IMG/VR virus record: IMGVR_UViG_3300042905_002238
Coordinates: 1 to 27,238 of that record
Strand: one strand, 5' to 3'
DNA: 27,238 bases
Origin: a virus
Position numbers and translations under genes: made by a program. Each line of letters starts with the position of its first letter. Position 1 is the stretch's first letter. Shown piece by piece: positions 11,657 through 27,238 of this stretch. The notes under the pieces are model-generated. The model searched no databases. It had not been told where the DNA came from and saw only the letters and a program-made list of their open reading frames with translations.

Positions 11657-11658
11657 GT

Positions 11659-11849: not shown

Positions 11850-11878
11850 TTGACATTATTGTATTACCTATATACAAT
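11850..11878 (+). promoter_or_regulatory. Sigma70-type promoter for the small-gene cluster
   Basis: TTGACA (11850-11855), 17 bp, TACAAT (11873-11878), 28 nt before ATG 11907. It should drive the six tiny overlapping genes that follow. Confidence 0.75.
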
Positions 11879-11906
11879 TTGTAAGTACACGTAGCACTGT
11901 GCCTTA

Positions 11907-12881: not shown

Positions 12882-12975
12882 GTTTCTTGGTAAACAAGTT
12901 TTGATTTTTATTGTGTTTATGTGTGGTCTTATTGTGGGATACGTGTATGGGTTTAGGAATGGTAGTGGGTTATAA
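12853..12975 (+). CDS. 40-residue single-pass membrane peptide
   Basis: GAGGA five nt upstream favours ATG 12853; in-frame ATGs also lie at 12841, 12850 and 12859. The product has a short polar start (MTMEWQELIEFLG), one hydrophobic helix (VLIFIVFMCGLIVGYVYG) and a short tail. It is the last gene of the tiny-gene operon. Small membrane peptides like this are easily missed; function unknown. Confidence 0.55.
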   Translation: MTMEWQELIEFLGKQVLIFIVFMCGLIVGYVYGFRNGSGL

Positions 12976-12979
12976 CCCC

Positions 12980-12987
12980 ATAAATAA
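12980..12987 (+). promoter_or_regulatory. Late-promoter-like CATAAATA
   Basis: CATAAATA is close to T4 TATAAATA and lies 21 nt before the oxygenase gene at 13009. The sequence is AT-rich, so the call is tentative. Confidence 0.35.
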
Positions 12988-13008
12988 TAAAAATTATTAT
13001 ATTAAATA

Positions 13009-13605: not shown

Positions 13606-13630
13606 CAACAAAATTATGAGGATGTATAAT
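13602..13630 (+). promoter_or_regulatory. Consensus sigma70 promoter for tRNA-Pro
   Basis: TTGACA (13602-13607), 17 bp, TATAAT (13625-13630), perfect consensus. The -35 overlaps the TGA stop of the preceding gene, and the -10 sits in the centre of a perfect 8-bp inverted repeat. Confidence 0.85.
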
Positions 13631-13638
13631 ATCCTCAT
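13616..13638. promoter_or_regulatory. Perfect inverted repeat enclosing a -10 box
   Basis: ATGAGGAT (13616-13623) and ATCCTCAT (13631-13638) flank GTATAAT. Such symmetry around a -10 element is typical of a repressor operator, although the last arm would also be in the transcript leader. Confidence 0.5.
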
Positions 13639-13648
13639 ACCAAGTCAA

Positions 13649-13723
13649 CGGGGTGTAGCTCAGTTTGGATAGAGCACTGCTTTTGGGAAGCAGGGGCCGA
13701 AGGTTCAAATCCTTTCACCCCGA
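13649..13723 (+). tRNA. tRNA-Pro (anticodon TGG)
   Basis: Acceptor CGGGGTG/CACCCCG, anticodon stem CTGCT/AGCAG with loop TTTGGGA, T-arm GAAGG/CCTTT (one G-T) with loop TTCAAAT, discriminator A, CCA not encoded. Confidence 0.95.
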
Positions 13724-13750
13724 CTTGGACAATATTTGTTCTTTTAATTC

Positions 13751-14362
13751 ATGGATAAAAGTATTAAAATAAACGGTCAAGAACCACATGTTCTTGCAGA
13801 TTCTCCATTAGTTTATCATAGAGAAGTTCTTCCAGAAGATTTGGTAGATCTTATGGTCAAAGAATTGAAAGAGATGGAAGAATTTAAAGTTCCATTTGAA
13901 GATGCTGGTGTTGGTGGTGAGGATAATGGTCGGATAGACCCAAAAATTAGAAATTCTAAAATCAATTGGTGGTTTGAAGACCATTGGGCATGTAGTGTAA
14001 TTTCTTATTATATTGGTTTATCTAATAGAAAGTATTGGGAATATGATTTGAATTTACTTGAAAGTATACAAATCTCAGTATATCTTGAAAATGGACACTA
14101 TGGTTGGCATAGTGATTATGGAACTTCAAAAAATGGGAAGTGGACTAGAAAACTTAGTGCAAGTGTTTTAGTTAGTGACCCTTCTGAATATGATGGTGGT
14201 GACTTAGAATTCATAGACTATCATGGCAATATTATACAGGCACCAAAAGAAAAAGGATCTGTTATTGTATTTGATTCAAGAATTCCTCATAGAGTTACTC
14301 CAGTAACAAGAGGAAGAAGAGTATCTTTGGTTACTTGGATGTATGGTCCCAAATTAAAATGA
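13751..14362 (+). CDS. PKHD-type 2OG/Fe(II) hydroxylase
   Basis: 203 residues. A complete facial triad is visible: GWHSDYG gives H120 and D122, SRIPHRVTPV gives H180, and RGRRVSLVTWMYGP gives the 2OG-binding R190. DGGDLEFID between them is typical of the PiuC/prolyl-hydroxylase class, whose members are about 220 residues, so this is full length. It should couple 2-oxoglutarate decarboxylation to hydroxylation of an unknown substrate. The next gene starts at its stop codon (ATGA). Confidence 0.88.
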   Translation: MDKSIKINGQEPHVLADSPLVYHREVLPEDLVDLMVKELKEMEEFKVPFEDAGVGGEDNGRIDPKIRNSKINWWFEDHWACSVISYYIGLSNRKYWEYDLNLLESIQISVYLENGHYGWHSDYGTSKNGKWTRKLSASVLVSDPSEYDGGDLEFIDYHGNIIQAPKEKGSVIVFDSRIPHRVTPVTRGRRVSLVTWMYGPKLK

Positions 14363-15042
14363 AGTGGCCAAGTTTTGCAGATAATCCGTTTAAACTGGTC
14401 AGGGTTCCAGAGAATTTATATTCTGAAATATTGAATTTTTATAATACTTGCGACTTCTCACAAAAAGAAGATTCTACCAATTCTCATTATGATCCTAAAT
14501 ACGGAGAACACATTACGGCTGGTTCGATAGCATTTAGAAATCCTTTAGGTGACCCTAAAAGAATTAAAAATCCTTATACCCATATAAACCATATTCCCAC
14601 AGAAAAATTAAAAGAATGGGCGGATATTCTTCAACCAATATTGGAAGAATGGTCTCATCAAAAATTAAAATATAGCACGGGTTATGGAATAAGAAGTTAT
14701 CCAAAAGACTCAATATTATGTTTACACCGAGATGAAATAAAAACTCATATTATTAGTTGTATAATTTTTATTGACGAGCAACCCAAAAATACAAATTGGC
14801 CTTTAGATTTTTGGGATCATGATGGTGTTAGACACAAGGTTGTTTTTGAACCTGGTGACATGTTATTATATGAGAGTCTATGTGTTCACTCTAGATATAC
14901 TCCATTTCAAGGAGATTATTATAGGAACATGTACTTTCATTGGAGACCAGAAAATTGGGATTATATCCCATATAAAAATAATAAAGTACAATATCTTTGT
15001 CCTGCGGAGGTTGATGATGAGTATCGAAAAGGAACTTGGTAG
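14359..15042 (+). CDS. Prolyl-4-hydroxylase-like 2OG/Fe(II) oxygenase
   Basis: 227 residues from ATG 14359, which overlaps the previous stop; a Met 24 nt earlier is less likely. Iron ligands are H123 and D125 (CLHRDE) and H177 (SLCVHSRY), with R189 (YYRNMYFHW) as the 2OG ligand. The spacing and EPGDMLLYES strand fit the prolyl hydroxylase branch. Coupled to the PKHD-type gene upstream; its end overlaps the small Phd/YefM-like gene by 26 nt. Substrate unknown. Confidence 0.82.
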   Translation: MKWPSFADNPFKLVRVPENLYSEILNFYNTCDFSQKEDSTNSHYDPKYGEHITAGSIAFRNPLGDPKRIKNPYTHINHIPTEKLKEWADILQPILEEWSHQKLKYSTGYGIRSYPKDSILCLHRDEIKTHIISCIIFIDEQPKNTNWPLDFWDHDGVRHKVVFEPGDMLLYESLCVHSRYTPFQGDYYRNMYFHWRPENWDYIPYKNNKVQYLCPAEVDDEYRKGTW

Positions 15043-15214
15043 TTTAAAGAGGTATACTGTGGAAGAGTTTCAAGCAGATTTTGATAACTTAATGAATTTG
15101 GTTGAAAAGGAAATGAAGTCTTTTATCATCACTAGTGAGTATGGTGAAGCAGTGCTCATGCCAGCAGATGAAGAATTGATACGAATATACACTGACCACA
15201 ACGAAGCACCTTGA
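15017..15214 (+). CDS. Phd/YefM antitoxin-like small protein without partner toxin
   Basis: 65 residues from ATG 15017, set by GGAGG six nt upstream. KRYTVEEFQADFDNLMNLVE followed by KSFIITSEYGEAVLMPADE is the typical fold signature of Phd/YefM antitoxins (DNA-binding N-terminal half, short beta-turn 'ITxxxxxxAVLxP'). No toxin-like reading frame follows; instead an oxygenase gene comes next. It may be a transcription regulator or an anti-toxin that counters a host system (inference). Confidence 0.7.
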   Translation: MSIEKELGSLKRYTVEEFQADFDNLMNLVEKEMKSFIITSEYGEAVLMPADEELIRIYTDHNEAP

Positions 15215-15239
15215 CAACCATAAGACCATCTGTTACTAT
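15211..15239 (+). promoter_or_regulatory. Promoter-like pair overlapping a start codon
   Basis: TTGACA (15211-15216), 17 bp, TACTAT (15234-15239). The -35 overlaps the TGA stop of the antitoxin-like gene, exactly as before tRNA-Pro, but the -10 runs into the ATG at 15238, so transcription would start inside the oxygenase gene. It may serve tRNA-Ile downstream, or be fortuitous. Confidence 0.35.
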
Positions 15240-15735
15240 GGACCAGTCAACAAAAATTATTGATAACTTTATTGAACCATCAATTTTTGAACATTTTAAA
15301 AAAACAATTGTGGGAAATAATACAATTCCTTGGTTTTTAAATCATGGAATATCAACAAAGAATACTTACAATGATGAAGGAATTTATTTTACCCACACGT
15401 TTTATACAGACTACAATATTTCTAGTCAATACTTTGGATCTTTAAACCCAATCTTTGAAAAAATAAATCCAAAAGCAATTATTAGAGCAAGAGCAAATGT
15501 CTATCCAAAAACAAATAAAATTGTCCAGCATGGGATGCATATAGATTATCCATATGAACATTTTGGATTGATAGTTTATTTGAATACTAATAATGGATTT
15601 ACTATTTTGGAAGATGGAACTAAAGTAGAATCAATAGAGAATAGAGCACTATTCTTTGATCCAAGTAAAAATCATTGTAGTACAACTTGCACGGATTCTT
15701 TTTTTAGATCTATTGTAATAGTTAACTATTTTTAA
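15238..15735 (+). CDS. 2OG/Fe(II) oxygenase-like protein
   Basis: 165 residues from ATG 15238. HGMHIDYPYEH gives H101 and D103, KNHCSTTCTDSFFRS gives H146 and R157; the strands GLIVYLNTNNGFTILEDG lie between. This is a complete small dioxygenase core of a type frequent in cyanophages. No signal peptide. Function probably hydroxylation of an unknown partner. It is followed 4 nt later by tRNA-Ile. Confidence 0.83.
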   Translation: MDQSTKIIDNFIEPSIFEHFKKTIVGNNTIPWFLNHGISTKNTYNDEGIYFTHTFYTDYNISSQYFGSLNPIFEKINPKAIIRARANVYPKTNKIVQHGMHIDYPYEHFGLIVYLNTNNGFTILEDGTKVESIENRALFFDPSKNHCSTTCTDSFFRSIVIVNYF

Positions 15736-15739
15736 TCGA

Positions 15740-15811
15740 GGGACTGTCGCCTATTGGTTAAGGCCCACTGCTTATAACGGTGTGAACTGAGTTCAATTCT
15801 CAGCAGTCCTA
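15740..15811 (+). tRNA. tRNA-Ile (anticodon TAT)
   Basis: Acceptor GGGACTG/CAGTCCT (first pair G-T), D-stem GCC/GGC, anticodon stem CACTG/CGGTG with loop CTTATAA, T-arm CTGAG/CTCAG with loop TTCAATT, discriminator A. A UAU anticodon reads AUA directly, which is rare in bacteria, where a CAU tRNA modified with lysidine is the rule. Confidence 0.85.
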
Positions 15812-15943
15812 TTGGTAGTCCTTAGCGATTAACTAAGTAGACGCCAACTTCTACTACGGATATCTTCCGTAGCGTCGTATGGGGATGGTTGGGCAGGGTC
15901 CGAGGACTTTGCCCAAATTGGGTGAAGTTCGACTATCCCCACT
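15812..15943 (+). ncRNA. Candidate structured noncoding RNA between tRNA-Ile and tRNA-Met
   Basis: 132 nt without a plausible gene. Stems seen: TTGG-GTC-CTTAG (15812-15825) with CTAAG-GAC-CCAA (15833-15847); CTACGGA/TCCGTAG (15854-15860, 15866-15872); an alternative GACGC/GCGTC (15840-15844, 15872-15876); TGGGGAT/ATCCCCA (15880-15886, 15935-15941) enclosing TTGGGCA/TGCCCAA (15889-15895, 15910-15916). The last domain resembles a tRNA acceptor closing an internal arm but lacks an anticodon arm and proper T-arm, so it is not a tRNA. It is probably co-transcribed with the flanking tRNAs. Confidence 0.6.
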
Positions 15944-15944
15944 T

Positions 15945-16017
15945 GCTCCTTTAGCAATCTGGTGAATGCAGCGAACTCATAATTCGCCTGAGGCGTGTTC
16001 GATCCACGCAAGGAGCA
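15945..16017 (+). tRNA. tRNA with CAT anticodon (Met or Ile2)
   Basis: Acceptor GCTCCTT/AAGGAGC, anticodon stem GCGAA/TTCGC with loop CTCATAA, T-arm GCGTG/CACGC with loop TTCGATC, discriminator A, CCA not encoded. A CAT anticodon can mean initiator Met, elongator Met or lysidine-modified Ile; sequence inspection alone does not settle this. Confidence 0.9.
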
Positions 16018-16018
16018 C

Positions 16019-16047
16019 TTGACAGATAACTGTCAAACCCTTATACT
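16019..16047 (+). promoter_or_regulatory. Sigma70-type promoter with palindrome at -35
   Basis: TTGACA (16019-16024), 17 bp, TATACT (16042-16047), 22 nt before ATG 16070. TTGACAG (16019-16025) and CTGTCAA (16030-16036) make a perfect inverted repeat centred just downstream of the -35 box. Confidence 0.75.
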
Positions 16048-16069
16048 ATTAAGGTCAACATTCAAAGCA

Positions 16070-16285
16070 ATGACTCTCACAGAAAAATTTAAAAAAGATG
16101 TGCAAACTCTTCGTGGTGCTGCAAACGGTGATTTTTACCTAGATGTAAAAAACCCAAAACTCTTTAAAAAAGTCCGTCGTTATTATGAAAATGAAGGTGT
16201 AGTCTTTTCTGGAGATCCTCTAGATGATTATGATATTCTCATTGATTGTCTGGTTCAAGATCTTGAGCAAATTGAAGTTGCCTAG
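16070..16285 (+). CDS. Small conserved hypothetical protein
   Basis: 71 residues from ATG 16070. Charged and probably helical (MTLTEKFKKDVQTLRG at the start, PKLFKKVRRYYENEG in the middle, acidic DDYDILIDCLVQDLEQIE end). No membrane segment or motif. It has its own promoter with a palindromic operator-like repeat, so it may be an early gene under repression. Function unknown. Confidence 0.75.
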   Translation: MTLTEKFKKDVQTLRGAANGDFYLDVKNPKLFKKVRRYYENEGVVFSGDPLDDYDILIDCLVQDLEQIEVA

Positions 16286-16322
16286 TCTCGGAATGACTAT
16301 AAAAGTGCCCTGGTCGGGAGCA

Positions 16323-16334
16323 ACCCCTTATGTC
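16323..16334 (+). repeat. Direct repeat copy 1 (ACCCCTTATGTC)
   Basis: A 12-nt sequence spanning the start codon of the 16330 gene, repeated exactly at 16581-16592. Confidence 0.5.
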
Positions 16335-16557
16335 TAAATCTGATTTACTTCGGTGGATTGGAAACATTCTTCTTATAATTGGTTATCAAACTATGTTATG
16401 GGGAGAATTTAAATATGGTTTGATGATTAAAGTTATTGGAGGTCTTCTCACAATTCCTTTTGCTATCAAACTTAAACTTTGGGATGTGCTGTTTTTATGT
16501 GCATTCTTTGGTATCTCCGAAATATCAAAGTTAACCCAACTTTTCTTAGTTTCTTAA
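16330..16557 (+). CDS. Small two-to-three-helix membrane protein
   Basis: 75 residues, nearly all hydrophobic: LLRWIGNILLIIGYQTMLWG, then GLMIKVIGGLLTIPFAIKL and WDVLFLCAFFGISE, giving two or three membrane helices. Function unknown; small PQ-loop- or holin-like proteins have similar layouts. The stop codon sits inside a perfect 8-bp hairpin (16545-16564). Confidence 0.72.
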   Translation: MSKSDLLRWIGNILLIIGYQTMLWGEFKYGLMIKVIGGLLTIPFAIKLKLWDVLFLCAFFGISEISKLTQLFLVS

Positions 16558-16690
16558 AACTAAGTGGTGGAGTCAATCTGACCCCTTATGTCCTCGTCGG
16601 ATGGACTTTAAATATGCCGACTGGTGCGGATGGGAATCTCTCCCGCCTGTTTCCTAGTTCAGTCAAAACTAGGTGGCGCGTCCTTCTTTG
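16545..16690 (+). other. Hairpin-rich intergenic region with a repeated stem element
   Basis: About 140 nt between a membrane-protein gene and an oxygenase gene. CTTAGTTT-CTTA-AAACTAAG (16545-16564) and CCTAGTT-CAGTCAA-AACTAGG (16653-16673) are related hairpins, each followed by GTGG and a nearby GTC. GTCGG/CCGAC (16596-16600, 16617-16621) and GGGA/TCCC lie between. A remnant start ATGTCCTCGTCGGATGGACTT then stop resembles the beginning of the 16330 gene, so a partial, decayed duplication is possible. Confidence 0.45.
16581..16592 (+). repeat. Direct repeat copy 2 (ACCCCTTATGTC)
   Basis: Exact copy of 16323-16334. The codons after the ATG read MSSSDGL then stop, against MSKSDLL in the intact gene. 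Confidence 0.5.
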
Positions 16691-16696
16691 GTTTTT

Positions 16697-17311
16697 ATGG
16701 AAAACAAAAAATCTACACCAACTAATTCAGTTTTAGATAACTTTATTGGTGTTTGGGATAATGTATTTGATCAAGAATTCTGTGATTTTATTATTAATTA
16801 TATTGATAATACTTCATTCATTAATTCTAGAAATTATAGTTTTGTTACAGATAAGCAAGTATGCCTTAGTGCATTTTCTCCATCTGAGGCAAACTATTTG
16901 ATGGGAGGAATTGACTTCTGTATGAATCAATATATTGATTCATACCCTTATTTAAAACAATTTAGTTACCATAGTTGTACAGTTCTTCTTCAAAAAACGG
17001 AACCAAGGCGTGGTGGTTATCATTCTTTCCATGCAGAAAATACAACATGGATAACAAAAGAAAGAACTCTTGCTTGGACAGTGTACTTTAATGATATTGA
17101 AGATGGTGGAGAAACTGAATTTTTATATCAGGGGGTAAAAGTAAAGCCAAAATTAGGTAGAGTTGCAATTTGGCCTGGATCTTTTACTCATCTGCATAGG
17201 GGTAATCCCACACCAGTTAATAAGTATATTGCAACTGGGTGGTATGCTGGTAATATTGGAATGAGAACTTTCTCTCCTGAAAGAGATGTATCTAGTATTG
17301 ATGCCCAATGA
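16697..17311 (+). CDS. Prolyl-4-hydroxylase-like oxygenase with HxE metal motif
   Basis: 204 residues from ATG 16697. The dioxygenase core reads SFHAEN (H112, E114), WTVYFNDIEDGGETEFLYQG, PGSFTHLHRGNPTPVNKYIATGWY (H165 or H167 as distal ligand, K176 for 2OG). The lysine and 'HRGNP' are prolyl-4-hydroxylase traits, but the usual HxD is HAE here. Glu at this place is tolerated in some family members, so activity is plausible. It overlaps the radical SAM gene by 4 nt. Substrate unknown. Confidence 0.82.
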   Translation: MENKKSTPTNSVLDNFIGVWDNVFDQEFCDFIINYIDNTSFINSRNYSFVTDKQVCLSAFSPSEANYLMGGIDFCMNQYIDSYPYLKQFSYHSCTVLLQKTEPRRGGYHSFHAENTTWITKERTLAWTVYFNDIEDGGETEFLYQGVKVKPKLGRVAIWPGSFTHLHRGNPTPVNKYIATGWYAGNIGMRTFSPERDVSSIDAQ

Positions 17312-18123
17312 TTAAAATCCCCCACTTAGAGTGGCATGTTACCCATTCTTGCAATTTTACTTGTGAGGGATGTGGTCATTATACTAATGATGGGTACAAA
17401 GAAAATATTTCACTTACCACTCTAAAAGAGTGGTATTTGTGTTGGAATAAAAAAATTTATCCAAAAGAATTGTCAATGTTAGGTGGAGAACCTCTTCTCA
17501 ATAAGGAGATCGTTGATATTATTTACATGACAAAAGAGATTTGGAATATACAAGATGACCAAGAATTTGAATTAGTATCGAATGGATTGCTATTTGATAG
17601 AATTGATGGACTATCAAAAGCACTGATTGATACAAATTGTATTTTGACTATAACTAAACATTCGCAGGACCATAATTACATCAGATTATTTGATATTGCG
17701 ATTCAAAAAATTAAGTCATCTGGAGTAAATTATAAAATACATGATGCATCTACTTATTGGTTAAGAACATATACTGGATATGGGTGTTCTATTGAACCAA
17801 TTTGCAGTGATGATTATATTGAGAGTTGGAATAATTGTCCAGGAGGACAAGAAAACTTTCAATTATTGGATGGTAAAATATATAAATGTGCGGCGCTTGC
17901 TTACTTACCACTACAAAAGAAAAAATTTGGGAATAATCTATCATCAAAATGGGATCCTTATTTAAAGTATAACCCATTGTTACCAACTAGTTCTGAGATA
18001 GATATTCTAGAATTTTTCACAAGAACTGCGGAACCAGTTTGTACAATGTGCCCTAAAAAGGCAAATAAATTTACGAAAAAGACACCATTACATTCTCCAA
18101 ATTATGGAAAAAAATATTATTAA
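17308..18123 (+). CDS. Radical SAM enzyme with auxiliary-cluster cysteines
   Basis: 271 residues. CNFTCEGC near the N-terminus (C15, C19, C22) is the CX3CX2C motif binding the SAM-cleaving 4Fe-4S cluster, with GGEP (59-62) as the SAM-binding motif. Further cysteines at 160, 166, 177, 194, 245 and 248 (NNCPGG, YKCAAL, VCTMCPKKA) resemble a SPASM/twitch domain for extra clusters, as in peptide-modifying radical SAM enzymes. It overlaps the upstream oxygenase (4 nt) and the downstream one (20 nt), implying a joint pathway. Substrate unknown; no peptide precursor gene seen nearby. Confidence 0.85.
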   Translation: MIKIPHLEWHVTHSCNFTCEGCGHYTNDGYKENISLTTLKEWYLCWNKKIYPKELSMLGGEPLLNKEIVDIIYMTKEIWNIQDDQEFELVSNGLLFDRIDGLSKALIDTNCILTITKHSQDHNYIRLFDIAIQKIKSSGVNYKIHDASTYWLRTYTGYGCSIEPICSDDYIESWNNCPGGQENFQLLDGKIYKCAALAYLPLQKKKFGNNLSSKWDPYLKYNPLLPTSSEIDILEFFTRTAEPVCTMCPKKANKFTKKTPLHSPNYGKKYY

Positions 18124-18757
18124 ATCTGATTATGTACATGTAGTTAAAAATGTTTTTTCTGATGATTTGCAGAATGAATTAAAAGTAAGTTCTGATAAAC
18201 ATTTTAAATATAATTTACTACATGCAGATGCAATAGAAGTAACAAAATGTATTATTGACTGCCATGGATTGGCATTATCATCAAGTTCTTATTTTCCCTA
18301 TGATGAGAGATGTTGGAATATATTTTGTCTTAGAGTAAAACATCATGTACTGGAATATTTTAAAGTTGTTGGTGTTGATGAATCTTTAATTGTTCCCCAT
18401 TCTTGTTGGGGAGAAAGATCAGCAACAAAACCAAATAGCATATTTAGTGTAATTAATTTTGAATCTTCAATTTTTCAGGATGATTTTGGACTCGTTGATG
18501 ACGACTGGCTTAAAAAACATATGATAAGAACTGTATATTATCTAAGAAATGATAATGTACATATGGGAACGGATATAAAAATAGGAAATAAAATTAAATC
18601 TATTCCTGGAGAACAGAATTCGTTGGTTATTTTTAATGGTGGTTCATATCCATGTTCAAATAAATTTTTAATTAATAGTGATTTTATAAAATATAATATT
18701 GTATTTGATTGGTATATTAATATTCCCTTTGGAGTTCCTGATTGGGTTTTACCTTAA
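18104..18757 (+). CDS. Degenerate 2OG-oxygenase-like protein, paralog of the convergent gene
   Basis: 217 residues. Similar in length and several blocks to the minus-strand product 18754-19392: VYYLRN...GTDIKIGNK and GEQNSLVIFN against VYYLKN...GTIVKITNK and GEENTIMIFD. Where the sister has HSH and YHTAL as likely iron ligands, this protein has no matching His pair and SYPCSN in place of YHTAL, so it probably lacks the metal site. It could be a non-catalytic partner. It overlaps the radical SAM gene at its start. Confidence 0.7.
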   Translation: MEKNIIKSDYVHVVKNVFSDDLQNELKVSSDKHFKYNLLHADAIEVTKCIIDCHGLALSSSSYFPYDERCWNIFCLRVKHHVLEYFKVVGVDESLIVPHSCWGERSATKPNSIFSVINFESSIFQDDFGLVDDDWLKKHMIRTVYYLRNDNVHMGTDIKIGNKIKSIPGEQNSLVIFNGGSYPCSNKFLINSDFIKYNIVFDWYINIPFGVPDWVLP

Positions 18758-19392
18758 TCAATATACTCACAATCAACTACAATGGTAATTCTAGGATAAA
18801 CTTCAGTTTCTTTAATTGGTGGATATAATGCTGTATGATATAGTCTAGGGTCAAAAATCATAATAGTATTTTCTTCTCCGTTATTATTAAATATTTTTTT
18901 ATTTGTTATTTTTACTATAGTTCCATATTTTGGGTCTGGGTTTTTTAAATAATAAACCATTCCTATAGGATTGGTTTTATGGGAATGCATATTTCCAAAT
19001 GTATTATGCAACCCTAATCTTTTTTCCAACTCATTTTTTGAGTGTACACTTGGAAAATCTAAATTGTGCAGTCTAGTAATCCAAGAAGAATGTAAACGAA
19101 TATTTTGTATATTGATTCCTGTTACTTTGCAATATTGTGCAATATGTTTTTTTGCTTCCGAATAAAAATTTACCCAAACTTGCTCAGATAGGAAAGATTC
19201 TTGTATCGCGTTACCCAATAAATTCTGAGATGCTTCTGGGGGAAATACTTCTTCAAGTGTACTCTTTCGAGTATTCTCTAACCATTTTACCGCAGAGGAA
19301 TATAGTTCTGGAAGAGATTCTTCTGGCATAAAATTATATGCTTTGTAGAAATAATTCCCTTCGTGCTTTTTTATTTGAGCGGTTTTTTCCAT
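18754..19392 (-). CDS. 2OG/Fe(II) oxygenase-like protein (2OG-FeII_Oxy_5 type)
   Basis: 212 residues on the minus strand. NMHSHKTN (H136, H138) followed by GMVYYLKNPDPKYGT and RLYHTALYPP (H186), with R201 in PRITIVVD, fits the HxH...H...R layout of the 2OG-FeII_Oxy_5 family. It faces, and overlaps by 4 nt, the paralogous plus-strand gene, which lacks these residues. A TAATAAATA on the minus strand (19416-19424) could be a late-type promoter. Substrate unknown. Confidence 0.75.
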   Translation of the reverse strand: MEKTAQIKKHEGNYFYKAYNFMPEESLPELYSSAVKWLENTRKSTLEEVFPPEASQNLLGNAIQESFLSEQVWVNFYSEAKKHIAQYCKVTGINIQNIRLHSSWITRLHNLDFPSVHSKNELEKRLGLHNTFGNMHSHKTNPIGMVYYLKNPDPKYGTIVKITNKKIFNNNGEENTIMIFDPRLYHTALYPPIKETEVYPRITIVVDCEYID

Positions 19393-19424
19393 TAAGATAA
19401 TGAGTCCAGTAAGAGTATTTATTA

Positions 19425-19453
19425 TTGATGTTTTTGTTTGGAGGTGCTATAAT
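19425..19453 (+). promoter_or_regulatory. Promoter of the glycan operon
   Basis: TTGATG (19425-19430), 17 bp, TATAAT (19448-19453) preceded by TGC (extended -10). It lies 22 nt before ATG 19476; all later genes follow with overlaps or near-zero spacing, so this may drive the whole cluster. Confidence 0.75.
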
Positions 19454-19475
19454 TTTTGGTGAATATACACTTACT

Positions 19476-20483
19476 ATGAAGACTGCTTTAATTACAGGAA
19501 TCACGGGGCAAGATGGTTCTTATCTTGCTGAATTATTGATTGAAAAGGGATACATGGTTCATGGAATAATTCGTAGAGCATCCCTTATTAATACACATAG
19601 GATTGATCATATTTTTAATCACCCACATCTCAAGTTACATTATGGGGATTTGACCGATTCTGCAAATATTATTCACATTCTCCAACAAACTAAACCTGAT
19701 GAGATTTATAATCTCGCGGCACAAAGTCATGTAAAAGTATCGTTTGAGATGCCTGAGTATACTGGTAATGTTGATGGATTGGGAACTCTTAGAATTCTTG
19801 AAGCGGTAAGAATTTTGGGAATGGAAAAAACTTGTAGAGTTTATCAAGCATCTACAAGTGAACTTTATGGATTAGTGCAAGAGGTTCCTCAAAAAGAAAC
19901 TACTCCCTTTTATCCACGTTCTCCTTATGGGGTAGCAAAATTATATGGATATTGGATTACAAAGAATTATCGAGAATCCTATGGAATGTATGCTTGCACA
20001 GGAATACTTTTTAACCATGAATCTCCTCGTCGTGGTGAGACATTTGTTACCCGTAAAATAACAAGAGGTCTTTCTAAAATTAGTGCTGGATTGCAGGATG
20101 TTTTATATCTTGGCAATTTAAATGCTAAAAGAGATTGGGGACATGCCAAAGATTTTGTCGAAGCAATGTGGATGATGCTTCAACAAGATGAACCCGATGA
20201 TTATGTGATTGCTACTGGTGAACAATATTCAGTTAGGGCATTTGTTGAGACTGCAGCACCTTACTTTGGAATGAAGATTAAATGGGAAGGTAGTGGTCTA
20301 GATGAAGTTGGTATTGATAAGAATACTAATAGAGTAGTTGTTAAAGTTGACCCTAAATATTTTAGACCTGCTGAAGTTGAATCTTTGTTGGGAGATCCCA
20401 CAAAAGCAAAGGAAAATCTTGGGTGGGAACCAAAAATTACTTTTAATGAATTAGTTGAGGATATGTGCATTTATGGACAGTGA
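19476..20483 (+). CDS. gmd: GDP-mannose 4,6-dehydratase
   Basis: 335 residues. An extended short-chain dehydrogenase: [17 protein letters not shown] provides the NADP-binding glycine motif (G8, G11, G14), STSELYG (127-132) the Ser/Glu of the active site, and YGVAKLYG Y151/K155 the catalytic Yxxx[14 protein letters not shown] and [14 protein letters not shown] are typical of GMD. It converts GDP-D-mannose to GDP-4-keto-6-deoxy-mannose in the cytoplasm, the first step to GDP-fucose. Start chosen at ATG 19476, matching the family N-terminus. First gene of the operon. Confidence 0.95.
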
Positions 20484-21408
20484 TTCTAAAATTTTAGTTG
20501 CTGGTGCTCGTGGTCTAGTGGGGTCAGCAATTGTTAGAAATCTAAGAAGCAAAGGATATACTAACATTATTGAAGGGACTCGTGATGATATAGATTTTAC
20601 TAATCAGGATGATACTGAAAGGTATTTTTGTTCAGAAGAACCAGAATATGTATTCCTTGCTGCTGCTAAAGTTGGTGGCATTATGGCAAACAAAACTCGC
20701 CCAGCAGAATTCATCTATGATAATTTGATGATCCAATCAAATATCATAAATGCGGCGTATAATTATGGTATTAAAAAGTTGGTATTTCTTGGGTCCTCTT
20801 GCATTTATCCAAAGCACCCAAACATTCCAATTACTGAAGACCAGTTGATGACTGGTCCTTTAGAACCAACTAATGATGCATATGCAATTGCTAAGATTGC
20901 TGGAATTAAAATGTGTCAATCATATCGTCAACAATATGGATTTGATGCAATTTCTTTACAACCAACTAATCTATATGGAGTAAATGATAATTTTAATCCA
21001 GAATCTAGTCATGTAATTCCTGGTATCATGCGTAGAATGCATGAGGCAAAGTTAAATGGAGATTCTCAATTTGTTTGTTGGGGAGATGGTTCTCCTCTTC
21101 GTGAATTTCTTTATATTGATGATATGGCAGAAGCATGTTATATTTGTATGAATGAATATGATGATTCAGAAATTATCAATATTGGTACTGGATCTGATAT
21201 TACAATTAAAGAATTAACAGAAATTATTGCTAAAGTAATTGATTATCGTGGAGAAATTGTTTGGGATATTAGTAAACCAAATGGTACTCCAAGAAAGGTA
21301 ATGAATGTTGACAAACTTAAGTCTCTTGGTTGGAGTCCTAAAGTTGGAATCCGTCAGGGAATTTATCAAACGTATGAATGGTTTAAAGAGAACTATGATC
21401 GGATTTAA
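20473..21408 (+). CDS. fcl: GDP-L-fucose synthase
   Basis: 311 residues from ATG 20473. [13 protein letters not shown] is the NADPH-binding motif, [13 protein letters not shown] and AYAIAKIAG (YxxxK) the catalytic region, and [10 protein letters not shown] and LGWSPK are typical of WcaG/Fcl epimerase-reductases. It turns GDP-4-keto-6-deoxy-mannose into GDP-L-fucose, completing the nucleotide sugar made from gmd's product. It overlaps gmd by 11 nt and the fucosyltransferase gene by 14 nt, so the pathway is translated as a unit. Confidence 0.95.
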
Positions 21409-22198
21409 TAATCTAGGAAAACTAGGAAGACTTGGAAATCAAATGTTTCAGTATGCCTCTTTGAGAGGAATTGCTGCAAACAATGGATATAACTGGATGA
21501 TTCCACCACCATCTGATGACCCATCTGGATATGATGAGTGGAGTGACCATCAATTACTTTATCCATTTGTGCTTGAAAATTTGCAAAATTTAAATGTTCA
21601 GCATATTTGTGGAGCAAGACCTACATTAAAAGAAAGCACCTTTGCTTTTGATGAAGAACTTTTTAATAACTGTCCCAAATGGGTTAATTTGGAAGGATAC
21701 TTTCAAAGCGAAAAATACTTTAAAAATATTGAAGATCAGATCAGAGAAGATTTTACATTCAACCCCCAGTATCTTCGACCTTCAAGATCTATGATGAATA
21801 GTGTTGAAGAACCAGTATCTTTGCATATACGCAGAACAGATTATTTGCAACTTGCACATAACCATAATAATCTTGGTTTGGATTATTATGAAGAGGCACT
21901 AAGTCATTTTGATAATGATCGAACTGTAATTATATTCTCTGATGATCCTAAATGGTGTAAGGAACAAAAATTGTTTGAGGACGATAGATTTTTAGTTGCA
22001 GAAGGAAATATTAGTTACATCGATTTGTGTCTTATGACTATGTGTAAGTCACACATCATTGCCAATTCCTCATTCTCTTGGTGGGGTGCTTGGTTGGCAA
22101 AAAGTCAAAAAGTTATTGCACCTAAAAACTGGTTTGGTCCAGATAATCAACACCTAGATACAAAAGATCTTTATTGCCCTGATTGGATTGTAATTTAA
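21395..22198 (+). CDS. Alpha-1,2-fucosyltransferase-like (GT11)
   Basis: 267 residues from ATG 21395. GRLGNQMFQYA (11-21), HIRRTDYL (144-151, the HxRRxD(Y) motif binding GDP-fucose), FSDD (181-184) and ANSSFSWWGAWLA (223-235) are the four signature motifs of GT11, whose enzymes add fucose in alpha-1,2 linkage, usually to galactose. It directly follows the two GDP-fucose genes. The acceptor is not provable from sequence. Overlaps the next start by TAATG. Confidence 0.92.
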   Translation: MIGFNNLGKLGRLGNQMFQYASLRGIAANNGYNWMIPPPSDDPSGYDEWSDHQLLYPFVLENLQNLNVQHICGARPTLKESTFAFDEELFNNCPKWVNLEGYFQSEKYFKNIEDQIREDFTFNPQYLRPSRSMMNSVEEPVSLHIRRTDYLQLAHNHNNLGLDYYEEALSHFDNDRTVIIFSDDPKWCKEQKLFEDDRFLVAEGNISYIDLCLMTMCKSHIIANSSFSWWGAWLAKSQKVIAPKNWFGPDNQHLDTKDLYCPDWIVI

Positions 22199-22917
22199 TG
22201 AAAGTCGCTGTTATTTTTATTGGAACAGAAAAATATTTAAACTTTTTGCCTGCGTGGTATGAAGGATGTGAAAAGTTTTTGTTGCCAAATGTAGACAAAA
22301 AGTATATAATTTTTACGGATGGAGAGATTCCAGAATCTCCAGATAATGCCATTGTATATCATCAAGAACATCTAGAATGGCCATTTATTACTTTGTATAG
22401 ATTCAAAATGATTCAAAAATGTTTTGATGATATTCAAGATTGTGATTGGTTAATTTTCTTGGATGCAGATATGAGAGTTGTTGATACTGTCAACATTGAG
22501 GATTTACTTGATGATACCAAGAAATACATTGGTGTTCATCATCCATGTCATTATTTAAAAATGCAACCTCATGATGAACTTCCTGGTGCATTTGACGTAA
22601 CGCCTTTATCCAAAGCTTGTGTTACAGAATCTGATGACTTGTCTGTTTATGTTCAGGGATGTCTTTGGGGAGGTAAATTGCCATATGTTATGGATATGAT
22701 CAAAGAACTTGACCAGAGAATTGATGATGATTATAAAAATAATATTATTGCAACTTGGCATGATGAGAGTCATCTAAACAAATTTTATATTCAAAATCGT
22801 GAAGACGTATTTGTAGCATCTCCAAGTCTTGCTTATCCAGAGGTATTTGCCAAAGCATGTACCTTTGAACCAAAAATTGTACACCTAGCAAAAGATAATA
22901 GTAAATATCATGTCTAA
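22198..22917 (+). CDS. GT6 glycosyltransferase (ABO blood-group-transferase-like)
   Basis: 239 residues from ATG 22198 (TAATG overlap). Key GT6 features: VAVIFIGTEKYLNFL at the start, DADMRV (D89, D91, a DxD metal motif) and WHDESHLNKF (187-196), the conserved HDESH block of mammalian A/B transferases and alpha-1,3-galactosyltransferase. VQGCLWGGK matches the acceptor region. Lengths of bacterial and phage GT6 catalytic domains are similar. ABO-type members transfer Gal or GalNAc alpha-1,3 to fucosylated galactose, exactly the product expected of the previous gene. GT6 has been reported in at least one cyanophage, so the family is not new to phages. Confidence 0.9.
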   Translation: MKVAVIFIGTEKYLNFLPAWYEGCEKFLLPNVDKKYIIFTDGEIPESPDNAIVYHQEHLEWPFITLYRFKMIQKCFDDIQDCDWLIFLDADMRVVDTVNIEDLLDDTKKYIGVHHPCHYLKMQPHDELPGAFDVTPLSKACVTESDDLSVYVQGCLWGGKLPYVMDMIKELDQRIDDDYKNNIIATWHDESHLNKFYIQNREDVFVASPSLAYPEVFAKACTFEPKIVHLAKDNSKYHV

Positions 22918-23614
22918 AATTGCTATGATTTACTCGGGTCAACCGAGGCATTTGAAGGAGTGTTATGAAAATCATCGTCAAACTTTTTGGGAAGCAAACC
23001 CAGATTGTGAGATTGATGTATTTGCTCATATTTGGTATGATGAGGCATGGGTTGGAACTTATTTTTGGGATCAATACAAGGACCGTGGTCGTTGGGAATC
23101 AGACCTAAAAGACTTTATGGTTGATAAATGGCAACCTAAAGGTCTTGTCTTTGAAGAACCAAAGGAATTTGAAGCAGAAGATATTCATCCAGACCCTAGA
23201 TTTCCTCACCCAGTCAATAATATTATCTCAATGTTTTATAGTCTGAGTGAAGCAAATAATCTTAAGAAAAAATATGAGGAAGAAAATGATTTCAAGTATG
23301 ATTGTGTTGTCCGTTTGAGAACTGACGAATACTTCTATACTCCTATTGGTCCCATTTCAAACTATGATTTGAATACTGTGAATGTTCTTAACGAATGGGC
23401 ACATGTGGAACATGGTATTAACGACCATTTTGCGTTTGGGTCTTCCGAGTTAATGGATAAATATTTTGACGTATATGACAACTTTGTTGAAATATGTGAG
23501 ATGGGTGCAGAAATCAACCCTGAATGTTTGATTGGATTTAATGCACAAAAGAGGCATAATCTTCCCATCACTAAAAACCCCTGGCACTATGTACTTTGGA
23601 GAGATAAAAAATAA
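22910..23614 (+). CDS. GQPR-type putative glycosyltransferase or glycan enzyme 1
   Basis: 234 residues, cytoplasmic, starting MSKIAMIYSGQPRHLKE. The N-terminal YSGQPR, DVFAHIWYDE and later DCVVRLRTDEYF resemble a family of proteins found in polysaccharide clusters, with the R-x-R-x-D element similar to a nucleotide-sugar site. It is clearly related to the product of 24987-25733 (GQPR, DVFGHMWW, and SQMYSIKSVAN against SMFYSLSEANN), so the two are paralogs. Activity is not assigned; a glycosyltransferase is the best guess. Confidence 0.72.
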   Translation: MSKIAMIYSGQPRHLKECYENHRQTFWEANPDCEIDVFAHIWYDEAWVGTYFWDQYKDRGRWESDLKDFMVDKWQPKGLVFEEPKEFEAEDIHPDPRFPHPVNNIISMFYSLSEANNLKKKYEEENDFKYDCVVRLRTDEYFYTPIGPISNYDLNTVNVLNEWAHVEHGINDHFAFGSSELMDKYFDVYDNFVEICEMGAEINPECLIGFNAQKRHNLPITKNPWHYVLWRDKK

Positions 23615-24987
23615 TGACCAAACTTGTTATCTTTGATTTGGATGGAGTCTTAATCGACAGTAAAGATTATCATTATGAAGCATTAAACCAAGCACTTGGA
23701 GATGAGTATGCTATCAGCAGAGAAGAGCATGTTAGCATTTATGATGGTCTTCCTACCAAAGCAAAACTAGAACTTTTAACCAAGAATAAAGGTCTTCCTG
23801 TAGATCTTTATGATACAATTTGGAGAGATAAGCAAGAAGCAACACTTAAGATTTTTAACGACTGCGTTGCAAAGGATTATGAGTTGATGGGGTACTTCCA
23901 ACAACTTGTAGATGCAGGATATAAGATTGCTGTTGCATCTAATAGTATTAGGAATACTGTGAAGATTATTCTATTGCGTCTTGGACTTCTGGAATTTGTG
24001 GATATGTACGTCTCTAATGAAGACGTTGTTCGCAACAAACCATTCCCAGCAATGTATTGGAAGTGTATGACTGCTCTTGGAGCACTTCCTGCAGATACCG
24101 TGATTGTCGAAGATAGTCATATTGGTCGTCAAGGTGCTCTTGACAGTAAGGCACATTTAGTTCCTGTAGAAGATCGTAAAGATCTCAATCAGGTAAAGAT
24201 TGATAGAATTAAAAAAATTCTGAATGGTACAAAACAAAAAGTTGCATGGGAGAGTAAAACAATGAATGTTCTTATTCCTATGGCAGGTGCTGGTAGCAGG
24301 TTTGCTAGTCAGGGTTACACCTTCCCTAAACCTTTGATTGAAGTTAAAGGTAAACCAATGATCCAAGTGGTTGTTGAGAACCTGAACATCAAAGCAAATT
24401 ATACTTTTATTGTTCAAAAGGAACATTATGAAAAGTATAATCTGAACTATCTACTTCCTTTGATTGCTCCTGGATGCAATATTGTTCAAGTTGATGGTCT
24501 AACTGAAGGTGCTTGCTGCACCACTCTTCTTGCAAAGGAGTTTATCAATAATGATGAACCTCTTGTAATGGCAAATTCGGACCAGTTTGTGGAATGGGAT
24601 AGCAACGAAACCCTTTATGCATTCCAGAACGGTGAAGTTGATGGTGGAATTGTTACATTCCCAGCGACTCATCCTAAGTGGTCTTATGCTAAACTTGGTG
24701 AAGAGGGTTATGTTGAGGAGGTTGCTGAGAAGAAACCAATTTCTGAACATGCCACTGTTGGTATCTACTATTGGAAGAAAGGTTCTGACTATGTGAAGTA
24801 TGCAGAACAAATGATTGCCAAAGATATTCGTGTTAATAATGAATATTATGTTTGTCCAGTATTTAATGAAGCGATTGGTGATGGTAAAAAAATCCGCATC
24901 AAAGAAATCGATAAGTCTGGTATGTGGGGTATTGGTACTCCAGAAGACCTGAACTACTTCCTTGAACATTATAAAGGAGAAGTCTGA
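23614..24987 (+). CDS. HAD phosphatase fused to sugar-phosphate nucleotidylyltransferase
   Basis: 457 residues with two domains. Residues 1-205: HAD hydrolase with FDLDGVL (D8, D10), ASNS (motif II), NKPFP (K142, motif III) and VEDS (E166/D167, motif IV), so a phosphatase or phosphomutase. Residues 217-457: nucleotidyltransferase with MAGAGSRF (223-230) and PKPLIEV (K239) and ANSDQFVEWD. Together they could dephosphorylate and activate a sugar phosphate, giving a nucleotide sugar for the glycosyltransferases around it. Sugar and nucleotide cannot be told. Starts 1 nt before the previous stop ends and overlaps the next start. Confidence 0.87.
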   Translation: MTKLVIFDLDGVLIDSKDYHYEALNQALGDEYAISREEHVSIYDGLPTKAKLELLTKNKGLPVDLYDTIWRDKQEATLKIFNDCVAKDYELMGYFQQLVDAGYKIAVASNSIRNTVKIILLRLGLLEFVDMYVSNEDVVRNKPFPAMYWKCMTALGALPADTVIVEDSHIGRQGALDSKAHLVPVEDRKDLNQVKIDRIKKILNGTKQKVAWESKTMNVLIPMAGAGSRFASQGYTFPKPLIEVKGKPMIQVVVENLNIKANYTFIVQKEHYEKYNLNYLLPLIAPGCNIVQVDGLTEGACCTTLLAKEFINNDEPLVMANSDQFVEWDSNETLYAFQNGEVDGGIVTFPATHPKWSYAKLGEEGYVEEVAEKKPISEHATVGIYYWKKGSDYVKYAEQMIAKDIRVNNEYYVCPVFNEAIGDGKKIRIKEIDKSGMWGIGTPEDLNYFLEHYKGEV

Positions 24988-25733
24988 TGAAAGTAGCACT
25001 TGCATTTTTTGGGCAACCTAGATTTGTTGACAACCAACAAATTATTGATACTTACAAAGAAGTAATTCTTGACCGATATGATACTGATGTATTTGGGCAT
25101 ATGTGGTGGGAGGAAGATGCTGAAGAGTATGACTATTCCTCATGGTCCAAAATAAACAAGTGTCCTGTTTCTAAAGATGCACCTAAAATTATTGCTGATA
25201 ATTATCAACCATTGATTTTGGGTATTGAAAGTCCAAAAACTTTTGAGTTACCCTCAAAAGCAAAAGAATTCATTGATGAAAAGTTTACTAATAAACACCC
25301 AGCAAGAGAGTTGTATGGGGAGAGTGGTAATCACTGGAATCCTAAAAATTACAGTAATGTAATGTCCCAAATGTATTCCATTAAATCTGTTGCAAATATT
25401 GTCAAATCATACGCTGAGGAAACAAATACCAGCTATGATTTTATTGTCCTTGCAAGATATGATACTGTTCTTCTTAACTTCCCAGATCTTAATACCTGCG
25501 ACAAATACAAATTCTATCTACCAGGACATCATCCTAGATTTCCAGATACAATTCAATTTTTTGGACCTAAGTATCTTACTTGGGCACTCAATGCATTTGA
25601 TGATATTGAAGATGTTTATGAAGACATTTGGGAACCATCTCCAGAAGCATTTAAAATGGGATCATTTTTAAAATGGTTTGAGCACTCTGATCTTGCTCCT
25701 TGTCCTATGGATGCTGCTTGTATTAGAGGTTGA
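24987..25733 (+). CDS. GQPR-type putative glycosyltransferase or glycan enzyme 2
   Basis: 248 residues, starting MKVALAFFGQPRFVD. Paralog of the 22910-23614 product: GQPR, DTDVFGHMWW, SNVMSQMYSIKSVANIVK and YDFIVLARYD in the same order, but with a longer middle. It shares the R-x-D type element of a GT-A-like enzyme. Located after the fusion gene and 1 nt before the GDPD-like gene. It probably adds a second, different sugar than its paralog. Confidence 0.72.
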   Translation: MKVALAFFGQPRFVDNQQIIDTYKEVILDRYDTDVFGHMWWEEDAEEYDYSSWSKINKCPVSKDAPKIIADNYQPLILGIESPKTFELPSKAKEFIDEKFTNKHPARELYGESGNHWNPKNYSNVMSQMYSIKSVANIVKSYAEETNTSYDFIVLARYDTVLLNFPDLNTCDKYKFYLPGHHPRFPDTIQFFGPKYLTWALNAFDDIEDVYEDIWEPSPEAFKMGSFLKWFEHSDLAPCPMDAACIRG

Positions 25734-25734
25734 T

Positions 25735-26193
25735 ATGAAACTAATTGCCCATCGTGCTAATATTGATGGACCAAATCCATCAATTGAAAATAGTCCAGAA
25801 CAAATTGACAAATGTATAGAACAGGGTTATGATGTTGAAATAGATCTAAGATACCATAAAGCAACTAATACTTTATGGTTAGGTCATGATGAACCTCAAT
25901 ATCTGGTAACTCGGTGGTGGTTAGCAACAAGAATTGATAGTCTTTGGATTCATTGTAAAGACTTAGATACTCTTCATGAAATGTCAGTTAATACCTCTGG
26001 ATACAATTATTTTTGGCATCAAGAGGATGATTATACTCTCACCAGTAAAAAATATATCTGGGCGTATCCTGGTAAATCATATACATCTAATACTGTTATT
26101 GTTATGCCAGAATGGAATAATATGATTTGGGATACCCTAAGAGTTACTAATTGTTATGGTATTTGTACAGATTACCCCGAAAAATTAAAATGA
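25735..26193 (+). CDS. Short GDPD-like phosphodiesterase domain
   Basis: 152 residues from ATG 25735. MKLIAHRA (H6, R7), IENSPEQI (E18, N19), DVEIDLR (E35, D37) and LGHDEPQY (H51) line up with the catalytic residues of glycerophosphodiester phosphodiesterases, and the end, YGICTDYP, is the usual GDPD C-terminal strand. Normal members are ~250 residues, so this one is compact. It could cleave a glycerophosphodiester in a glycan or lipid head group; alternatively it has another role in the glycan cluster. Overlaps the next gene by 4 nt. Confidence 0.75.
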   Translation: MKLIAHRANIDGPNPSIENSPEQIDKCIEQGYDVEIDLRYHKATNTLWLGHDEPQYLVTRWWLATRIDSLWIHCKDLDTLHEMSVNTSGYNYFWHQEDDYTLTSKKYIWAYPGKSYTSNTVIVMPEWNNMIWDTLRVTNCYGICTDYPEKLK

Positions 26194-27140
26194 AAATCAC
26201 TCTCATAGGTCCTGGAATTATGCCGATCCCTCCAACTGGTTGGGGTGCGGTTGAGATTCTTGTTTGGGATACTAAATGTGCCCTAGAAGAACTGGGTCAT
26301 GAAGTACAAATTATTAATACCAAAGATAATCGTCAAATTATCAATGGGATTAATGCATTTGTACCAGACTTTGTTCATGTGCATTATGATGAATTTATTC
26401 CTATTGTTCCTTACATTCAATATCCAAATGCAATTACAAGTCATTTTGGATATCTAGAACGTAAAGAAATGTTCAATGGTTACATTAATGTTGCCAATGA
26501 ATTCATGAGGATTAAACCAAATGTATTTTGTCTCTCACCAGGAATTGAGAAAGTATATAATGTTATGTTTGATATTCCAAAAGAGAATACTTACATAACA
26601 CCTAATGGGGTCAATACTGATAAGTTTACATTTAAAGATACTCCAGAATATCCCGATAGAAGTTTATATCTTGCAAAGATTGATTATAGAAAAAGACAAC
26701 ATTTATTCCAATCAATTGATAGTCTTTGGTTTGCTGGTAATCTCGCTGATAGCAGATTTAATACTAGTAAAAACTATTTGGGAGAGTGGTCAAAAGAGAC
26801 TCTTTATAATCAATTGACTGATTATGGTAATCTTGTTCTTCTTTCAGATGGAGAGGCACATCCTCTTGTTTGTATGGAAGCACTTGCTGCTGGACTTGGA
26901 GTAGTTGTTTGTGAATGGGGTAAAGCAAATCTTGATACTGATAAAGAATTTATTACAGTAATTCCAGAAGAAAAGATTACCGATATTGATTATGTTGAGA
27001 ATGCTATAATTAAAAACAGAGAATATTCTATTGCTCATAGAAATGAGATTGTAGAATATTCAAAACAGTTTGACTGGAAAGAAGTTCTTAAAAAGTATTA
27101 CATCCCTAGTGTAGAAAAAGTAATTGAACGTCATGCATAG
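26190..27140 (+). CDS. GT4-family glycosyltransferase
   Basis: 316 residues from ATG 26190, overlapping the previous TGA. MKITLIGPGIMPIPPTGWG is the N-terminal GT-B motif of GT4 enzymes, TPNGVNTDKF the linker/acceptor region, and LLSDGEAHPLVCMEALAAG carries the EX7E motif that binds the nucleotide sugar. A retaining transferase that adds one sugar to a lipid- or protein-linked glycan in the cytoplasm. Sugar unknown. Confidence 0.88.
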   Translation: MKITLIGPGIMPIPPTGWGAVEILVWDTKCALEELGHEVQIINTKDNRQIINGINAFVPDFVHVHYDEFIPIVPYIQYPNAITSHFGYLERKEMFNGYINVANEFMRIKPNVFCLSPGIEKVYNVMFDIPKENTYITPNGVNTDKFTFKDTPEYPDRSLYLAKIDYRKRQHLFQSIDSLWFAGNLADSRFNTSKNYLGEWSKETLYNQLTDYGNLVLLSDGEAHPLVCMEALAAGLGVVVCEWGKANLDTDKEFITVIPEEKITDIDYVENAIIKNREYSIAHRNEIVEYSKQFDWKEVLKKYYIPSVEKVIERHA

Positions 27141-27238
27141 TACTTTATTAGATAAAAATAAATCTGCATATAAGTTAAATGGGTTTGGTCCCATTTATTA
27201 CTTGAATATGGACGAAGATGCTGATCGTCGTCAACATA
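27133..27238 (+). CDS. Start of a probable GT25-like glycosyltransferase (3' partial)
   Basis: 35 codons visible from ATG 27133, overlapping the previous gene by 8 nt. GPIYYLNMDEDADRRQH matches the N-terminal pattern of GT25-type transferases (YxxNxDxxxxRR). It continues beyond the window, so the family call rests on this one motif. Confidence 0.6.
   Translation, partial: MHSTLLDKNKSAYKLNGFGPIYYLNMDEDADRRQH

Follow-up and report, generated by a model that had tools for sequence, protein, structure and literature searches.

A gmd-fcl-GT11-GT6 cassette with a predicted blood-group-B-like product opens a cyanophage glycan operon

RESULTS

The cassette and its virus

We analyzed a stretch of viral DNA of 27,238 nucleotides (IMG/VR record IMGVR_UViG_3300042905_002238), referred to here as the window, with a focus on four overlapping genes on its + strand at 19476 to 22917: gmd, fcl, a gene for a GT11 protein, and a gene for a GT6 protein. 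A first-pass annotation had described these genes as a cassette with the logic of an ABO(H) blood group antigen pathway, and its account of the genes themselves was borne out by profile families and by the motifs HIRRTDYL, ANSSFSWWG, DAD, and WHDES (Table 1). The sequence itself gives the families of the genes, their order, overlaps, and linkage, and the catalytic residues of their products. Gene starts were picked at internal ATGs, and the GT11 stop and the GT6 start share one base (TAATG junction). We consider it moderately probable that the cassette would build a blood-group-B-like cap, via GDP-fucose, GT11, and GT6, on a larger glycan.

By its sequence relationships the virus is identified as a cyanophage, because relatives of the two transferases are found mostly in cyanophage records. 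Among 50,697 phage records, 71 held GT6 relatives (64 of them named for Synechococcus or Prochlorococcus) and 104 held GT11 relatives (90 named for these genera or as cyanophage).

GT11 accompanies GT6 in phages and bacteria

The viral GT6 set consisted of 92 loci, namely, the window, 80 IMG/VR loci (the best among at least 558 confirmed relatives), and 11 chosen phage loci, and the bacterial set consisted of the best 80 of 225 relatives. Dereplication at 95% GT6 identity reduced these sets to 52 and 79 loci, respectively; an identical locus, L032, stands for the window, and L036, a contig that starts inside GT6, is among the 40 viral loci folded away. In all 52 viral loci GT11 lies upstream of GT6 on the same strand, separated from it by no more than 1.9 kb, and in 44 of them it lies within 200 bases. 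GT11 is present within 10 kb of GT6 in 55 of the 79 bacterial loci and within 200 bases in 37, and the GT11-to-GT6 distance peaks at the neighboring gene. A Hoeflea sp. metagenome-assembled genome contains a single 725-codon reading frame with both GT6 and GT11 domains (L165, 9416 to 11590).

The reverse relationship is sparse. In a GT11-seeded viral set (the best 80 among 586 or more relatives of a divergent GT11 query, not dereplicated), just 7 of 80 loci have GT6, with GT11 directly or one gene upstream of GT6 in four of the seven and downstream in three. GT11 is also present in S-SRM01, S-T4, S-SM2, and S-SSM7, phages absent from the 60 Synechococcus-phage records with GT6. A one-way dependence of GT6 on GT11 is what would be expected if GT6 acts on the product of GT11. 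The conserved pairing and its asymmetry support, on genomic evidence, the pathway order that the first-pass annotation had drawn, and an enzymatic order from GDP-fucose through the GT11 product to the GT6 cap is likely. The gene order with GT11 before GT6 is common, not universal. In two viral contigs, the GT6 match upstream of GT11 lies in a long frame of more than 550 codons (L249, 720 to 2390; L255, 5485 to 7155).

The GT6 protein is a DxD-type member of the ABO family

The GT6 protein was recognized by PF03414 (72.6 bits, cut-off 25, 3.1e-20) and by the phage glycosyltransferase family phrog_3317 (8.9e-107); against NCBIfam NF041524 (Gltr_6 subfamily) it scored 174.8 bits, below the cut-off of 250, and was not assigned there. 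Its AlphaFold2 model (mean predicted local distance difference test score [pLDDT], 92.7) has as its best PDB match BoGT6a (4ayj; Z, 31.4; root mean square deviation [rmsd], 1.6; 223 aligned), followed by the human enzymes GTA and GTB (for GTB, 4frq; Z, 27.7; rmsd, 1.9; 223 aligned). The protein keeps DAD, WHDE, and a His aligned with BoGT6a His122. Sequence and model together place it, with confidence, in the ABO family with a GT-A fold and a predicted catalytic Glu in WHDE.

The GT6 proteins of all 52 dereplicated viral loci have D[AV]D (DAD in the window), and the window protein is accordingly classed by its sequence as DxD type, with metal dependence predicted. The earlier remark that GT6 keeps DxD like the animal enzymes, whereas many bacterial proteins have NxN, held as far as the motif is concerned: a quick tree of 98 rows showed NxN in 65 of the 78 bacterial sequences and DxD in 11 of them, with 2 others, and DxD in all 18 phage sequences. 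The window GT6 did not group with human GTB in this tree, where GTB forms a long branch of unsure placement. The tree has three motif changes with "other" scored as a state, and we reject DxD as a mark of animal ancestry.

The donor triplet (human positions 266 to 268) reads QGC in 51 of the 52 viral loci; the exception is P-SSM2, with AGG. The use of N-acetylgalactosamine (GalNAc) has been proposed to require glycine at 266 or 268 (PMC4692239). Because QGC has glycine at neither position, the predicted donor of the window GT6 is galactose (Gal; B-like) and not GalNAc; by the same inference GalNAc is predicted for P-SSM2. The human B-type residues Met266 and Ala268 are not found in the window protein, which has Gln and Cys there.

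Photosynthetic cyanobacteria were considered as the host origin but gained little support: of 386 genomes sampled across the cyanobacterial phylum, 11 had PF03414, and 2 of the 11 had a reaction-center gene. One locus, L202 (in G259, a 2.3-Mb genome with reaction-center genes), has a DxD GT6 whose donor triplet, QNC, is close to the phage motif, and is a possible cyanobacterial source.

The GT11 protein is a fucosyltransferase-family member

The GT11 protein matched PF01531 (103.7 bits, cut-off 23.9, 1.4e-29) and the phage glycosyltransferase family phrog_2644 (1.6e-115). A sequence search of the PDB found no structural relative, and a fold search with the AlphaFold2 model (mean pLDDT, 92.8) was therefore used. 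Its matches were POFUT1 with GDP (Z, 14.1; rmsd, 4.6; 228 aligned), NodZ (Z, 13.6; rmsd, 3.9; 225 aligned), and plant FUT1 (Z, 13.5; rmsd, 3.8; 228 aligned), which tie within 1 Z unit and all belong to other fucosyltransferase families; the plant FUT1 structure, too, was solved with GDP. Profile, HxRRxD motif, and modeled GT-B fold identify the protein as a fucosyltransferase family member, and the linkage that it makes is probably alpha-1,2, giving the H structure.

Two sugar-donor supplies alternate beside GT11

In the 52 viral GT6 loci, the donor supply is a predicted GDP-mannose-3,5-epimerase (GME) in 25, gmd plus fcl in 21, and neither in 6; none has GME with fcl. The catalytic Cys, Tyr, Lys, and His are kept in all 21 aligned viral fcl products. 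The gene before GT11 in S-CAM9 is annotated as a UDP-glucose 4-epimerase, and its product has as best PDB match the Arabidopsis GDP-mannose-3,5-epimerase 2c59 (E, 6.2e-81, whereas GDP-fucose synthetase gave 3.5e-20 and a UDP-glucose 4-epimerase 2.9e-19). A Lys and an Arg mark this epimerase off from GDP-fucose synthase (PMC8787198), and the catalytic Cys, Tyr, and Lys, the base Lys, and the Arg are found in all 25 viral GME proteins. By these residues, the gene that takes the place of gmd and fcl in the relatives is a GDP-mannose-3,5-epimerase, a predicted maker of GDP-L-galactose. Fucosyltransferases accepting GDP-L-galactose have been reported (PMC8787198), which makes L-galactose transfer by GME-linked GT11 chemically reasonable. 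Three genes whose annotations read UDP-glucose 4-epimerase or NAD-dependent epimerase appear to be misannotated GME (L018 [S-CAM9], 7068 to 8189; L019, 7116 to 8201; L027, 7099 to 8151; the PDB search was made for L018 only), and L027 has a weak gmd-like frame as well.

Supply changes were counted on trees of 44 rows, which left out the six supply-less rows and two long branches, L024 and L026 (both gmd plus fcl). The GT11 tree has one change (in 969 of 1,000 bootstraps; two in 31) and the GT6 tree has five (range, 4 to 6); with L024 and L026 included, quick trees gave two and five. An independent-pairs test yielded 1 and 4 pairs, too few for significance. The difference between one change on the GT11 tree and four to six on the GT6 tree indicates that GT11 and its supply travel as one past GT6. 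An event of this kind is visible in L037: its GT6 is 90% identical to that of the window, and the homology starts inside GT11 at window position 21552, upstream of which an epimerase replaces gmd, fcl, and earlier genes.

The x residue of HxRRxD that is T in the window's HIRRTD is T in 20 gmd-plus-fcl loci, S in 1, and G in none, and in GME loci it is G in 22 and T in 3. Three observations, from counts that omit motifs unreadable by pattern, count against reading T/G as a donor switch: T-type GT11 occurs in three GME-only loci of the GT11-seeded set, G-type stands beside T-type in 2 of 3 gmd-plus-fcl-only loci of that set, and of 11 bacterial GT11 proteins whose loci include gmd or fcl, 8 have G and 1 has T, with 2 unread. 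With 8 of 11 bacterial proteins being G type, a simple donor switch is rejected, and T/G is better taken as a lineage mark that does not set the donor alone. Mutual exclusion of the two supplies as a universal rule is likewise rejected, since 5 of the 80 GT11-seeded loci have fcl together with GME; in 4 of these 5, a T-type GT11 occurs alongside a G-type one. Cyanophage S-SCSM1 is reported to have, as cell wall genes, an alpha-1,2-fucosyltransferase together with gmd, fcl, and GME (PMC9602691).

The cassette opens a longer operon

The first-pass annotation had treated the four genes as a unit. The packed + strand genes in fact continue to 27140 (Table 1). Contig L046, which has 99.99% identity to window positions 12198 to 27238 and extends beyond the window end, continues the series with GT25 and, immediately after it, an OprB/SLH porin (15840 to 17315 in L046), and the cassette is the opening part of a longer cyanophage glycan operon reaching GT25 beyond the window. 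Further along L046 lie Hli, ferredoxin, peroxiredoxin, and psbA genes (read by eye), and in the annotation of phage DSL-LC03, hli, ferredoxin, and peroxiredoxin likewise come after the sugar island. An annotated porin is also found in S-SRM01.

A single promoter had been claimed for the four genes. A candidate site does precede gmd, but promoter-like sites number 54 in positions 17000 to 27238, compared with 51.5 +/- 6.1 in shuffled sequences; because such sites occur at about the shuffle frequency, a single promoter is plausible and no more.

The gene in DSL-LC03 that is placed similarly to the phrog_34507 gene carries the annotation glycerophosphodiester phosphodiesterase; Pfam gave no family for either protein.

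Table 1. Features of the window and the evidence for each
Feature	Position	Strand	Evidence or remark
Autotransporter beta-domain behind Thr/Ser-rich repeats	1-1521		PF03797, 2.3e-15; truncated by window start
Nine tRNA genes, dispersed among small genes	9410-16018
2-Oxoglutarate (2OG)-Fe(II) oxygenase or Asp/Arg-hydroxylase-like genes	9691-10389, 13009-13605, 13751-14362, 16673-17311, 18754-19392		Last is a weak PHROG match
Radical SAM protein	17308-18123		PF04055; viperin-like model match weak, far below cut-off
Sigma-70-like promoter candidate, TTGATG-N17-TATAAT	19425-19453	+	10/12 matches; TG before -10; precedes gmd
gmd, GDP-mannose 4,6-dehydratase	19476-20483	+	TIGR01472, 571.7 bits (cut-off 415); PF16363
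fcl, GDP-L-fucose synthase	20473-21408	+	NF047922, 466.7 bits (under cut-off 500); 11-base overlap with gmd
GT11 fucosyltransferase-family protein, HIRRTD type	21395-22198	+	PF01531; phrog_2644; 14-base overlap with fcl
GT6 (ABO-transferase family) protein	22198-22917	+	PF03414; phrog_3317; DAD 89-91; triplet QGC; WHDE 187-190
phrog_13607 protein, function unknown	22910-23614	+	PHROGs; PF25072 below cut-off
HAD phosphatase/sugar nucleotidyltransferase fusion	23614-24987	+	PF13419, residues 5-181; PF00483, residues 223-390
Second phrog_13607 protein	24987-25733	+	PHROGs
phrog_34507 protein, function unknown	25729-26193	+	PHROGs
GT4-like glycosyltransferase	26190-27140	+	phrog_33732, 7.6e-186; PF13439, 2.5e-5 (below cut-off); start is internal ATG of open reading frame 26151-27140

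DISCUSSION

The arrangement of the cassette is consistent with a pathway in which, in the infected cell, Gmd and Fcl would convert GDP-mannose to GDP-L-fucose. GT11 would then put fucose on a beta-galactose-type end, probably in alpha-1,2 linkage (the H structure), and GT6 would attach a further sugar, most likely galactose, through an alpha-1,3 linkage to the same end. The resulting B-like cap would sit on a larger glycan made with the help of the island's remaining transferases, GT25 among them. We infer the sugar linkages, the GT6 donor, the acceptor, and a host surface glycan as the target; of the candidate targets, a host surface glycan is our first choice and a virion protein our second.

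Several observations weigh against this pathway. No GT11 was found in the available sequence of 24 of the 79 bacterial GT6 loci (9 of the 24 are incomplete). GT11 lies about 0.8 kb downstream of GT6 in L249 and L255 and about 3.7 kb downstream in L281, which has none in the 3.5 kb upstream. Neither donor supply was found in 6 of the 52 viral loci, five of which have at least 2.5 kb of upstream sequence, and the GT6-seeded viral loci sample one clade, having been chosen as the 80 best matches among 558 or more relatives. The GT11 family includes an alpha-1,3-fucosyltransferase, HhFT2 (PMC4202792). The position of BoGT6a Thr134 is occupied by Ala in the window GT6 and by Ser in some relatives, so that its acceptor pocket is not identical to that of BoGT6a. 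The mixed linkages of GT11 and the residues at the Thr134 position, together with a QGC triplet that equals neither the human A nor the human B residues at 266 and 268, would fit a branch of non-ABO type, made with another linkage or acceptor sugar, in which the likeness to blood groups exists only at the family level. The pairing of GT11 with GT6 is kept in distant bacteria and the fold match of GT6 to the ABO enzymes is very close, and we regard such a branch as unlikely on balance, if still a serious contender. That the two genes travel together merely because cyanophage sugar genes cluster, with no pathway order, seems improbable to us. GT11 and GT25 are indeed common in these islands, and 35 of the 52 GT6 loci contain GT25 as far as the sequence reaches; simple clustering does not readily account for the close adjacency in viral and bacterial loci, the peak at the neighboring gene, the Hoeflea fusion, or the one-way dependence.

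The target of the cap is a separate question. The cap could be placed on a virion protein, e.g., a fiber, and so shield or tune the particle rather than the host surface. In keeping with this, no flippase or polymerase was recognized among the ten window proteins scanned with Pfam, and the phage GT25 profile matched Mimivirus R655 (5.1e-8) and procollagen galactosyltransferase (4.5e-4) as well as a bacterial GT25 (1.2e-3). Genes for 2OG-Fe(II) oxygenases and Asp/Arg hydroxylases are close by, tail-fiber-like genes start about 12 kb past GT6 in P-SSM2, and mycobacteriophage virions are glycosylated (PMC12619734, citing Freeman 2023). The island end, however, adjoins hli, ferredoxin, peroxiredoxin, and psbA, which are host takeover genes and not virion genes, and we judge a virion target unlikely. 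The autotransporter-like protein at the window start, an outer-membrane-type phage protein, is a possible glycan acceptor. Glycosylation of phage DNA, suggested by the hypermodification by virus glycosyltransferases named in PMC12619734, is very improbable: no base-modification enzyme was recognized among the window proteins scanned with Pfam, and the GT11 and GT6 models match transferases acting on proteins or glycans.

The analysis makes a concrete, testable pathway of a part of cyanophage islands that has gone unstudied. We put forward, tentatively, a wider model of a polymorphic blood-group-like system in cyanophages, in which recombination would switch the sugar at the H position between a fucose module (gmd, fcl, and T-type GT11) and an L-galactose module (GME and G-type GT11) under a constant GT6 cap. 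The cap would itself come in two kinds, with Gal predicted for QGC and GalNAc for the AGG of P-SSM2. By such switching the virus would alter the antigens or receptors displayed by infected cells or virions, much as ABO alleles do in animals. Near-identical GT6 genes beside a fucose supply in the window and beside a predicted L-galactose supply in L037 provide a natural control. The findings would also correct public annotations in which a phage GDP-mannose epimerase is labeled UDP-glucose 4-epimerase, and they suggest that the GT6-GT11 pairing in bacteria is wider than the few characterized cases.

GT6 in cyanophages, cyanophage sugar islands, and the blood group B structure of Escherichia coli O86 are already known; as of 2014, GT6 genes had been noted in 36 bacterial species and two cyanophages (PMC3961637). 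In the literature that we searched, which covered few subscription journals, we came across no account of phages that couple GT11 with GT6 or exchange one donor module for another. The cassette resembles the E. coli O86 system, in which the GT11 enzyme WbwK makes the H structure and the GT6 enzyme WbnI adds alpha-1,3-Gal to give blood group B (PMC4202792), in the succession of GT11 and GT6 families. It differs in that the E. coli genes form a bacterial O-antigen cluster and bacterial GT6 proteins are described as NxN (PMC4202792) or as mostly NxN, two with DxD being known by 2014 (PMC3961637), whereas the phage GT6 is DxD and lies in a cyanophage island. BoGT6a of Bacteroides ovatus, the closest solved structure, acts on 2'-fucosyllactose (PMC3961637) but has NAN, is metal independent, and has the triplet AGG and a GalNAc donor. 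Among phages, P-SSM2 of Prochlorococcus and ACG-2014f of Synechococcus resemble the window in that a single island holds gmd and fcl together with GT11, GT6, and GT25, with other genes interposed among fcl, GT11, and GT6; the AGG-bearing GT6 of P-SSM2 falls outside the main phage clade in the quick tree. S-CAM9, S-PRM1, S-8S53, and Bellamy have GT11 directly before GT6, as in the window, with GDP-mannose-3,5-epimerase instead of gmd and fcl, and S-CAM9 shares the HAD-nucleotidyltransferase fusion (L018, 10360 to 11745) and GT25 as well.

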